The notes beneath the pieces were generated by a model that worked only from the letters and a program-made list of their open reading frames with translations, did not search any database and was not told where the DNA came from. Below are positions 44,303 to 47,858 of a stretch of 64,000 nt of DNA, in pieces. Origin of the DNA: Fimbriimonadaceae bacterium (GTDB lineage Bacteria > Armatimonadota > Fimbriimonadia > Fimbriimonadales > Fimbriimonadaceae); NCBI GenBank assembly GCA_023957775.1, contig JAMLGR010000003.1:1-64000 (forward strand), in the 5' to 3' direction. Position 1 is the first letter of the stretch. Each line of letters opens with the position of its first letter. The position numbers and the translations under genes were made by a program.

Positions 44303-45172
44303 TTAGCAGGTCGCCAGGGACATGCCAACGAGTTCCGCCGCCTCGATCGTGTTCGCCAAGAGGCTGGCGACGGTCATAGGCCCAACCCCGCCGGGGACGG
44401 GGGTGATCCAGGAGGCGACCTCCGACGCGCTTTCGAAGTGGACATCGCCCACGTCTCCTTGGCGCCCCTCGACCTTGTTGTAGCCCGCATCGATCACCAC
44501 CGCACCGGGTTTGAGCCATTCGCCGCGGATCATCTCGGCGCGCCCTACGGCCGCGACCAGGACGTCTGCGGTCCGGCACAAGGCGGGAAGGTCCTGGGTG
44601 CGCGAGTGGGCGATCGTGACGGTCGCATGTTTCTGCAACAGCATGAGGGCTGCCGGCTTGCCGAGGATCACGCTGCGCCCGACCACCACGGCGTGCCGTC
44701 CTTCGAGCGGAATCTTGTAATGGTCGAGGATCCGCATGATGCCCATGGGGGTTGCGCAGCGAAATCCCGGCAGGTCGCACACAAGCCTTCCCGCGGATTG
44801 CGAGGTGATGCCGTCCACGTCTTTCTCGGGACCCAGAGCTTCGAGGGCCTTCGGCTCGTCCAGGTGCGGGGGCAGCGGGTGTTGGATCAGCACGCCGTGT
44901 ACCGCGGGATCGGCGTTCAGGGCGGCGATGTGGGCCATCAAGGCCTCCTGCGTCGTGGAGGCGTCCGCTTCGAACACGCCGGACTCGATGCCTGCCTTCT
45001 CGCACCACTTCCGTTTCATGCGTACGTACGCGAGGCTGGCCGGGTCCTGGGCGGCCACGACCGCCTCGAGACGCGGCACCACGCCTCGGGCGCGCAGGGC
45101 TTCGGTGCGGACGCGCACCTCCTCGCGAACGATCTTCGATAACTCCAACCCATCGAGAATCTGAGCGCTCAC
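44303..45172 (-). CDS. folD: methylenetetrahydrofolate dehydrogenase/cyclohydrolase
   Basis: FolD interconverts methylene-, methenyl- and formyl-tetrahydrofolate. The 289-residue protein has YVRMKRKWCEKAGI with the catalytic Lys, LIQHPLPPHLDE, KDVDGIT, the NADP loop VVVGRSVILGKPAA, and the C-terminal TPVPGGVGPMTVASLL. GTG 45172 overlaps the nusB stop as GTGA. It is co-transcribed with accC and nusB. Confidence 0.95.
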   Translation of the reverse strand: MSAQILDGLELSKIVREEVRVRTEALRARGVVPRLEAVVAAQDPASLAYVRMKRKWCEKAGIESGVFEADASTTQEALMAHIAALNADPAVHGVLIQHPLPPHLDEPKALEALGPEKDVDGITSQSAGRLVCDLPGFRCATPMGIMRILDHYKIPLEGRHAVVVGRSVILGKPAALMLLQKHATVTIAHSRTQDLPALCRTADVLVAAVGRAEMIRGEWLKPGAVVIDAGYNKVEGRQGDVGDVHFESASEVASWITPVPGGVGPMTVASLLANTIEAAELVGMSLATC

Positions 45173-45741
45173 TGGGGCGTCTCCTCCTTCCTCACCGTCC
45201 ACAACCCGGCCCGCGCCAACTCCTGGGCCTCCTCTGAATCCTCGGTGACGGTCTCCACTTCCGGTTCAGGCTCGGGCGCCGCCGCTCCCACCCGTTCGTC
45301 CGGGGGCGCGCTCGCGGGGTCCCACTCGTGCTTGGGGGTCCGTTCCAGAAGGTTCCCGAGCACTCCGTTCACAAATCGGCCGCTCTCCGCCGTGCTGTAC
45401 TTCTTCGCGAGGTCCACGGCCTCGTTGATCGTCACGGCGGGAGGGATCGGGGGGCAGTGGAACAACTCGTACGCGGCGAGGCGCAGGATGTTGCGATCGA
45501 CCGTCGCGACGCGCGAAAGGTCCCAATCCCTCAGACTCTGCGCGAGGGCGCCGTCGAGCGCGTTCAGGTGCGCCAGCACGCCCTTGATGGCGGCCCGGGC
45601 GAACTCGGCGAGCTCCGGCTCGAGCTCGGCATGCTCCAGGGTGTCCTCGATCGCGGCATCGGTCGGGGTGTGGCCAACTTCGATTTCGTAAAGGGCCCGG
45701 AGGATCGCTTCGCGGGCCGGTCGTCGCGAGCTACCCCGCAT
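45169..45741 (-). CDS. nusB: transcription antitermination factor NusB
   Basis: NusB with NusE (S10) loads onto boxA during rRNA antitermination. The 190-residue protein starts MRGSSRRPAREAILRALYEIEVG, contains VATVDRNILRLAAYELFHCPPIPPAVTINEAVDLAKKYSTAESGRFVNGVLGN (family core), and has an acidic C-terminal tail of about 50 residues not found in short homologues. ATG 45741 lies inside the end of accC (11-bp overlap). Confidence 0.92.
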   Translation of the reverse strand: MRGSSRRPAREAILRALYEIEVGHTPTDAAIEDTLEHAELEPELAEFARAAIKGVLAHLNALDGALAQSLRDWDLSRVATVDRNILRLAAYELFHCPPIPPAVTINEAVDLAKKYSTAESGRFVNGVLGNLLERTPKHEWDPASAPPDERVGAAAPEPEPEVETVTEDSEEAQELARAGLWTVRKEETPQ

Positions 45742-47092
45742 GGACCTTCTCCGCAAGAAACTTGGGAACGAAGGACGTATTGAGATCTCCCGAGACGAAG
45801 TCGGGGTGTTCGACGAGCCGGCGGAGGAACGGGATGTTGGTTTGGATGCCCTCGACCTCGAACTCGTGCAGGGCGCCTTGGAGCTTGGCGACCGCTTCTG
45901 GGCGCGAATTGGCCACGACGATCAGTTTGGCGAGCATGGGGTCGTAAAACGGACTCACCGAAAAGCCCGCGTAGCAGTGCGTGTCCATCCGGACGCCGCG
46001 CCCGCCCGGAGCGCGCCACATCGTGATCAGGCCGGTGCTGGGCGCAAAGTCGTTGTCGGGGTCCTGGGCGGTGATTCTCGCCTCGATGGCGTGCCCCGAC
46101 AGCGACACCTCCTCTTGGCGGATTGGGAGCTTCTCGCCCGACGCGACCCGGAGCATCAGTTGCACGAGGTCGATTCCGGTCACCTCCTCCGTGACGGGAT
46201 GCTCGACCTGCAGCCGGGTGTTCATCTCGAGGAAGTAGAAGTTGAAGTCGGCGTCGACCAAGAACTCGACGGTGCCTGCGTTCTGATAGCCGACGGACCA
46301 GGCCACCTTGACGGCGGCCTCTCCCATGCGGCGCCGAAGGTCGGCGGGCATTTCTGCGTAGGGAGCCTCTTCGAGCAGCTTCTGGTGGCGCAGATTCTGG
46401 ACGGAGCACTCGCGCTCGCCGAGGTGGATCATGTTGCCGTGCGCATCGCCCAGCACCTGGATCTCGACGTGGCGCGGGTTGAGCACGCACTTCTCGACCA
46501 GCATCTCGCCGCTCCCGAAGCTCGCTTGCGCTTCCGCTTGGGCGGTCTTCCACAGCGCGGACAGCTCGTCCGGGGAGTTCACGCGGCGGATTCCTCGGCC
46601 CCCGCCGCCCGCCACGGCTTTGAGCAGCACGGGATAGCCGATGCTGTCGGCGACCTTAAGCGCTTCGGAATCGCTCGGCACGGCGCCTGCGGACCCGGGC
46701 ACGACGGGGCAGCCCGACTCGATCGCCGCCTTCTTGGCGCTGGCCTTGTCGCCCATCGCCTCGATGGCGGACACCGGCGGCCCGATGAAGGTGACGCCCA
46801 ACGACTCGAGCGCCTCCGCGAAGCTCGCCCGCTCGCTGAAGTAGCCGTAGCCCGGGTGGACGGCCTCGGCCCCCGAGATCTGGGTGGCCATCAGCACGTT
46901 CCCAAGACTGAGGTAGCTGTCGCCGTTGCTCCCGGCGCCCACGCAAATCGTCTCGTCCGCGATCTTGACGTGCAGGCTCTCGCGATCGGCCTCCGAGTAG
47001 ATCGCGACGCTGCGCACGCCGAGTTCGCGGCACGCGCGAATGACTCGGCAGGCGATCTCCCCACGGTTGGCGATCAGCACTTTGCGGAACAT
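45731..47092 (-). CDS. accC: acetyl-CoA carboxylase biotin carboxylase subunit
   Basis: AccC carboxylates biotin on BCCP with ATP and bicarbonate, the first half of malonyl-CoA synthesis. The 453-residue protein starts FRKVLIANRGEIACRVIRAC and contains HPGYGYFSE, the Gly-rich ATP lid KAVAGGGGRGIRRV, RHVEIQVLGDAHGNMIHLGERECSVQNLRHQKLLEEAP, and the catalytic EMNTRLQVEHPVTE. GGAGG lies six bases before the ATG. The two genes upstream are a pseudopilin and an accB-like gene, both coupled by overlaps. accA and accD are not in the window. Confidence 0.96.
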   Translation of the reverse strand: MFRKVLIANRGEIACRVIRACRELGVRSVAIYSEADRESLHVKIADETICVGAGSNGDSYLSLGNVLMATQISGAEAVHPGYGYFSERASFAEALESLGVTFIGPPVSAIEAMGDKASAKKAAIESGCPVVPGSAGAVPSDSEALKVADSIGYPVLLKAVAGGGGRGIRRVNSPDELSALWKTAQAEAQASFGSGEMLVEKCVLNPRHVEIQVLGDAHGNMIHLGERECSVQNLRHQKLLEEAPYAEMPADLRRRMGEAAVKVAWSVGYQNAGTVEFLVDADFNFYFLEMNTRLQVEHPVTEEVTGIDLVQLMLRVASGEKLPIRQEEVSLSGHAIEARITAQDPDNDFAPSTGLITMWRAPGGRGVRMDTHCYAGFSVSPFYDPMLAKLIVVANSRPEAVAKLQGALHEFEVEGIQTNIPFLRRLVEHPDFVSGDLNTSFVPKFLAEKVHAG

Positions 47093-47454
47093 CAGAATCC
47101 TCCGTGGCCGGGGTGCGCGCAGCGAACCTTGCCGGTGGCCGGATCGTAGACGTAGGGCTCCTTTCCGACCGGGCAGCGCTCGAAGGAGCTTCCCAGCTTG
47201 AGCTGCGCAAGCGATTCGGGGTTGGGGTCTTCGCCCATGTTGGTGAAGATCGTCATGGACTGTCGGATTTGGGAGAGCTGGTTCTGGCACTCACTGTCCA
47301 ACGCCTTGGCGCGGACGGCTCCCGGAACGGTTTTTCCCAGGCCGTCCGCCCGAGAAGAACCCGCGCCGGTGCCCCGCAAGAAGAACACGGCCAGCCCCAG
47401 GATGATCACCAGCGTGATCATCGTCGAGACGAGGGTGAAGCCGGCGCGTCTCAC
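47092..47454 (-). CDS. pseudopilin-like protein inside the acc operon
   Basis: The 120-residue protein begins MRRAGFTLVSTMITLVIILGL, a type IV prepilin leader with peptidase cleavage expected between Gly and Phe. The usual Glu at mature position 5 is Ser, as in some minor pseudopilins. The short globular part ends CPVGKEPYVYDPATGKVRCAHPG, with two cysteines that could form a C-terminal loop like those of ComGC/GspG-type pilins. GTG 47454 overlaps the accB-like stop as GTGA, and its TGA shares a base with the accC ATG. Translation is thus coupled to fatty-acid genes, an odd location. The gspF-like pair at 13-16 kb could serve it. Confidence 0.82.
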   Translation of the reverse strand: MRRAGFTLVSTMITLVIILGLAVFFLRGTGAGSSRADGLGKTVPGAVRAKALDSECQNQLSQIRQSMTIFTNMGEDPNPESLAQLKLGSSFERCPVGKEPYVYDPATGKVRCAHPGHGGF

Positions 47455-47858
47455 GGAGCCACCCTGACCTTGGCGATCGTCTGGCCGTATTCGACGGGCG
47501 AGTCCGGCTCGACGAGCACTTCCACGACCTCGCCGTCAAACGGACACTCCACGTCGTTGGCGAGCCCCAGGGCGGAGACGACGGCCACGACGCTCCCTTT
47601 CGACACCGTTTGACCGACGGTCAGGGCCTCCTTGGCGGAGTTCAGATAGCCCACGAGGGGGGAAACGATGGACTTGAGCTCGTCGCCATCCGAAGGTTCG
47701 CGGTGCTCGGCCGAGGCGAGGACCCGCGTCGGGGCCGGGCGTGGCGAGAGGGTGGCGGAGAAGGCGAGGTCGCCTACCTCCAGTTCGAGTTCGGCGATGC
47801 CGTTGGCCCGGGCCACTTCCAAGGCGTGCCGGATCAGTTCGAGGTCCTGATTCGCCAT
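47451..47858 (-). CDS. BCCP-like protein lacking the biotinylated lysine
   Basis: The 135-residue protein has the layout of acetyl-CoA carboxylase biotin carboxyl carrier protein: an N-terminal helix (DLELIRHALEVARANGIAELELEVGD), a linker, and a biotinyl-like hammerhead domain (KSIVSPLVGYLNSAKEALTVGQTV through ECPFDGEVVEVLVEPDSPVEYGQTI). At the hairpin where BCCP has E-A-M-K-M/L the sequence reads S-A-L-G-L, so Gly replaces the biotin-accepting Lys. It therefore cannot carry biotin in the normal way. It lies two genes upstream of accC. Plant BADC proteins are a precedent for lysine-less BCCP relatives that modulate the enzyme. Confidence 0.85.
   Translation of the reverse strand: MANQDLELIRHALEVARANGIAELELEVGDLAFSATLSPRPAPTRVLASAEHREPSDGDELKSIVSPLVGYLNSAKEALTVGQTVSKGSVVAVVSALGLANDVECPFDGEVVEVLVEPDSPVEYGQTIAKVRVAP

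Follow-up and report, generated by a model that had tools for sequence, protein, structure and literature searches.

The window analysed here is a 64,000-nucleotide stretch of DNA from a Fimbriimonadaceae bacterium, and it encodes a BCCP-like protein, a pseudopilin-like protein and the biotin carboxylase of acetyl-CoA carboxylase (ACC) in close succession on the minus strand:

47451 to 47858, minus strand: lysine-less BCCP-like ("carrier-like") protein of 135 amino acids, the accC-locus copy, assigned from its Biotin_lipoyl domain, BCCP family match and homologues
47751 to 47852, minus strand: its N-terminal helix and beta hairpin, residues 3-36, from the AlphaFold2 model and a profile alignment to 4hr7_B residues 21-175
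47616 to 47648, minus strand: its thumb loop (residues 71-81), short at 11 residues where canonical BCCP has 16, from the thumb count and the 4hr7 alignment
47565 to 47567, minus strand: its Gly98 codon (GGG) in the biotin-lysine column, at the tip of the hairpin between strands 90-96 and 99-104, from alignment and model
47092 to 47454, minus strand: pseudopilin-like protein of 120 amino acids, with a weak N-methylation motif and a C-terminal CPxGxxPYxYDPxTGxVxCPHPGH conserved across the phylum
45731 to 47095, minus strand: accC, the biotin carboxylase of ACC, starting MFRKVLIANR (PRK08591, 645.6 bits; TIGR00514, 620.1 bits)
45169 to 45756, minus strand: nusB, downstream of accC in the same direction (Pfam NusB, 1.3e-35)
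44303 to 45202, minus strand: folD, further downstream in the same direction (Pfam THF_DHG_CYH, 4.3e-35, and THF_DHG_CYH_C, 7.9e-63)

The carrier-like open reading frame starts with ATG and is read from 47858 to 47451. Its product contains a Pfam Biotin_lipoyl domain (PF00364; E 1.6e-9, passing the cut-off), and its best family is the NCBIfam BCCP model (TIGR00531), which it matches with 57.8 bits, below the cut-off of 115.2. As described in the initial annotation of this locus, SALGL occupies the place of E-A-M-K-M/L in this BCCP homologue, with glycine, residue 98, at the lysine column. The translational linkage to accC through the pseudopilin gene, proposed at the same time, is borne out by two 4-base overlaps, the first between the carrier-like stop and the pseudopilin-like start (47451-47454), and the second between the pseudopilin-like stop and the accC start (47092-47095). 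Upstream of the carrier-like gene, a cluster with CheD, HDOD and CheR genes begins on the opposite strand; downstream, nusB and folD follow accC, as they do in Bacillus.

The rest of the ACC machinery is dispersed through the same genome. Searching the assembly, which is 3.5 Mb long and 96.6% complete, recovered an unlinked canonical BCCP with the motif EAMKVFNE on contig 22 (G000:C22:20539-20979), confirming the expectation that a true BCCP must be encoded elsewhere, and ruling out that this genome has no other BCCP. Both a lysine-less BCCP homologue and a true BCCP therefore coexist in one genome, as would be expected of a BADC-like arrangement. On contig 14 lies accD, adjoined by a frame identified by eye as accA, and birA is on contig 8. 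The accC in the window is the genome's top match to the ACC-type family; a second biotin carboxylase, which follows an enoyl-CoA-hydratase-like frame on contig 22, is probably of the methylcrotonyl-CoA carboxylase type.

The carrier-like protein is widespread among related bacteria. When AccC was scanned against named genomes, its closest named relatives belonged to Armatimonadota, with two carrying the name Fimbriimonadaceae. Of 61 relatives, 58 have homologues of the carrier-like protein at E<=1e-5, and the order carrier-like, pseudopilin-like, accC was observed in 29 of the first 30 loci; at locus L022 (L085 when re-read with longer flanks), the carrier-like and pseudopilin-like genes are retained together, and no accC was seen within ~5 kb downstream. 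Across the phylum, 120 of 121 genomes matched the family profile, which also catches canonical BCCPs, and therefore the loci themselves were read. This reading turned up an accC-locus-type copy in 116 of 121 sampled Armatimonadota genomes, many of the genomes searched being fragmented, and a few of the loci possibly being contaminants. Four of the other five genomes gave at most one match (a canonical BCCP or nothing), and the fifth (G086) was outside the reading; a canonical BCCP was detected at E below 1e-30 in 118 of the 121. The probable contaminant contig (L051, contig C238 of G054) carries an ordinary pair of accB (EAMKIMNEI) and accC, unlike the rest of its family. In family f2, the carrier-like protein is mostly unlinked from accC, with a lysine-less protein (VEVLGIPNEV) lying away from accC at L369 (8425-8898), L357 and L366; in L369 it is flanked by a frame starting MRFDKLTIKAQEAVQDAL, Clp-like by eye, and by a long membrane-protein-like frame. 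In one genome of family f3 (G038, L048, 2776-4278), the BCCP-like stretch lies inside a 501-codon open frame, either a fusion or a mere open frame. Judged from these sequences, nearly all sampled Armatimonadota appear to keep a carrier copy, usually adjacent to accC, that in most lineages would be unable to hold biotin.

The biotin-lysine column was read in the accC-locus copies of 160 genomes, comprising the phylum genomes in which a copy was read and nearer relatives. Lysine was missing from 122 copies, in which the residue was glycine (84), arginine (20), histidine, asparagine or aspartate (four each), or threonine or serine (three each), and was kept in the remaining 38, which may still be biotinylated. 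In the same run, all 43 canonical BCCPs had the lysine. Similarly, 30 further canonical loci read EAMK in 29 cases and EANK in one, the rare variants that keep the lysine being LLEANKVFSE (one locus among L326-L355) and IIMAMKVMSE (L320). As a control, 76 accC loci of other phyla, mostly Pseudomonadota, were inspected, and ExMK was present in all 72 readable accB neighbours. The alignment across relatives that had been suggested as a check found glycine fixed in 42 of 42 Fimbriimonadaceae genomes, ruling out a sequencing error at Gly98, since every member of the family that was read has the same residue; glycine is also fixed in families f5, f8 and f18.

Mapped on an AccC tree (110 sequences), the presence or absence of the lysine changes at least 14 times, and 10 of these changes are unavoidable given the strongly supported branches. 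Without any regain of lysine, the minimum is 16 losses, wherever the root is placed. These changes, together with the residue states, rule out a single lysine-to-glycine event. That the lysine has been replaced by glycine, arginine, aspartate, histidine, asparagine, threonine or serine in many separate losses, is kept in a minority of copies, and is accompanied by a short thumb even where it is kept, marks the carrier-like copy, on the sequences compared, as a second carrier-like subunit with a dispensable lysine, rather than the product of one recent change.

The thumb, measured as the number of residues between two fixed glycines, is exactly 16 residues long with a proline motif in 43 of 43 canonical copies. 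In the accC-locus copies it is usually 11, averaging 11.8 residues in those with lysine and 11.5 in those without, and the 16-residue form is retained in 25 of 160. That lysine-bearing copies also have a short thumb suggests that its shortening usually preceded loss of the lysine. Work cited in PMC11926652 reports that thumb mutations disrupt E. coli BCCP. The top PDB sequence match of the window protein, over nearly its whole length, is the E. coli BCCP of the BC-BCCP complex, and alignment to this protein in the crystal (4hr7) leaves a five-residue gap at the thumb and places L-G on M-K. An AlphaFold2 model (29 sequences; mean pLDDT 87, with a pTM of 0.54 because the linker is loose) consists of a helix (3-18), a hairpin (23-36) and a barrel (61-133) with Gly98 at the turn. 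BCCP domains head the PDB matches to this model, with that of E. coli first and Arabidopsis BCCP1 next. A tree was also built from 107 BCCP-type sequences after removal of the hairpin-tip and thumb columns. The canonical copies group together in one clade (99), and monophyly of the accC-locus copies is compatible with the AU test (p 0.83); the alignment is short and the resolution poor.

We consider it fairly probable, by analogy, that the carrier-like protein is a non-catalytic ACC subunit acting like plant BADC, and that it probably arose separately in bacteria, which would be a simpler reading than shared descent with the plant proteins. The broader proposition stands a little above even chances: that the ACC of the whole phylum combines a biotinylated carrier-like subunit with a structural one, and that the structural subunit became independent of biotin early, with a shortening of the thumb preceding, in most lineages, more than 10 losses of the lysine, and is a separately arisen counterpart of plant BADC. 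Its ancestor was most likely an accB gene in front of accC, an order that is seen in the accC loci of other phyla. An unlinked second BCCP, with EAMKVFNE and a full thumb, would then have assumed the carrier work, while the old copy stayed as a structural subunit, losing its thumb loop first in most lineages, and its biotin lysine later and many times. As the barrel and N-terminal helix-hairpin are kept, the protein probably still docks on AccC and mixes with the true BCCP. A biotin-free protein in BCCP-like places of the BC-BCCP subcomplex could thereby determine how ACC assembles, in what stoichiometry, or how fast it works, as has been suggested for BADC in plastids. We infer the origin by replacement or duplication, the binding to AccC and BCCP, and the direction of the effect, whether as glue or brake.

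The link to ACC itself draws on one reduced Fimbriimonadaceae genome (G028; 1.5 Mb, 97% complete), in which a search found ACC-type accC, accD, the canonical BCCP and the carrier-like protein to be absent together; its sole biotin carboxylase follows an enoyl-CoA-hydratase-like gene, and its carboxyltransferase matches are far weaker than the accD of its relatives. On gene content, this co-loss, a single case, ties the carrier-like protein to ACC. This bacterium apparently has no acetyl-CoA carboxylase at all, while keeping methylcrotonyl-CoA-type carboxylase genes (L364, L365). The same co-loss suits a narrower version of the preferred explanation equally well, in which the protein acts purely as a dominant-negative brake, competing with BCCP for AccC in some conditions and having no assembly role. 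For plant BADC, such competition has been put forward as one of two roles (PMC7712654, PMC11926652), but it is inseparable by sequence from the role as glue, and we regard a pure brake as rather unlikely.

The neighbouring gene raises a different prospect, that the carrier-like protein is no enzyme subunit, but regulates gene expression (for example that of accC) or an envelope process together with the pseudopilin-like protein. A conserved pseudopilin-like gene lies between the carrier-like gene and accC in most of the phylum, its reading frame overlapping both, and the explanation through BADC leaves this neighbour without a place. However, the pseudopilin-like gene is missing in family f37, part of f12 and most f2 loci, where the carrier-like protein is retained. 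Furthermore, the conserved part of the pseudopilin-like protein should be outside the cytoplasm, and direct contact between the two proteins is therefore unlikely; hence a regulatory function seems improbable. Among homologues of the pseudopilin-like protein, the C-terminal motif is conserved in L013-L042, and the N-terminus resembles a lipoprotein signal, not a pilin, in L027, L029, L032 and L049.

Still less probable is that the carrier-like protein is a redundant old accB, drifting since a second BCCP took over, with the barrel kept because misfolding is harmful or through some minor role. The many different residues at the lysine column would fit drift, as would the pace of evolution: AccC omega is ~0.01-0.14, below that of the carrier-like protein, and part of the pattern could therefore be relaxed constraint. 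Yet barrel omega (dN/dS), computed on trimmed ends for pairs of close relatives, is ~0.04-0.31, well below 1 with lysine-less lineages included, the copy persists in those 116 of 121 phylum genomes, and glycine is fixed in all 42 Fimbriimonadaceae as well as in f5, f8 and f18. The same omega range and near-universal retention rule out a pseudogene. The initial annotation saw a specific loss of the lysine without general decay; the protein is under purifying selection, but the loss extends beyond this lineage, and the thumb was shortened as well. That the protein is still a carrier, with biotin or another group on a different residue, is very improbable and was rejected despite the intact barrel-sandwich fold of the model, given the glycine at the hairpin tip and the finding of no conserved lysine or cysteine column, even among Fimbriimonadaceae copies.

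A non-catalytic subunit of ACC hence remains the preferred explanation, and the bacterial counterpart of BADC that was originally suggested for this one protein is partly upheld, in that it is lysine-less, linked to accC, under selection and accompanied by a true BCCP elsewhere; it is amended in that the pattern extends across the phylum, and involves a short thumb too. Non-catalytic BCCP-like subunits have been described as special to plant plastids, and a phylum-wide bacterial case would show that they evolved repeatedly. The natural series from lysine-bearing to lysine-less copies includes intermediate lineages that are tests of the separate roles of thumb and lysine, and a small bacterial system could decide between an assembly-promoting and an inhibitory role for such subunits. 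Among open-licence papers, no earlier report of a bacterial BADC-like protein, or work on ACC in Fimbriimonas, was found.

Three known systems bear comparison. Firstly, like AccB/BCCP (TIGR00531), the window protein is predicted to have an N-terminal helix-hairpin, linker and biotinyl barrel, and its gene precedes accC, though the pseudopilin-like gene intervenes; unlike AccB, it lacks the biotin lysine, has a thumb of 11 rather than 16 residues, and scores only half of the family's 115.2-bit cut-off, at 57.8 bits. Secondly, the AccE-type subunits of actinobacterial acyl-CoA carboxylases are small, non-catalytic and have an assembly role (PMC7835884), as may the carrier-like protein by analogy; unlike it, AccE is 8.7 kDa, has no biotinyl domain described, and binds the carboxyltransferase rather than the BC-bearing subunit. 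Thirdly, plant BADC proteins are BCCP-like with the biotin motif absent, have been proposed either as aids to assembly or as competitors of BCCP for BC (PMC11926652, PMC7712654), and were called unique to the plant enzyme in 2025 (PMC11926652). The window protein resembles them in its homology to BCCP over the biotinyl domain, in having Gly98 where the lysine of the AMKL motif would be, beside true BCCPs, and, by analogy, in its putative place in a BC-BCCP subcomplex (PMC11926652). In contrast to BADC, the Armatimonadota protein is bacterial, known from sequence and usually encoded with accC, its thumb is usually short, and some lineages have kept the lysine.
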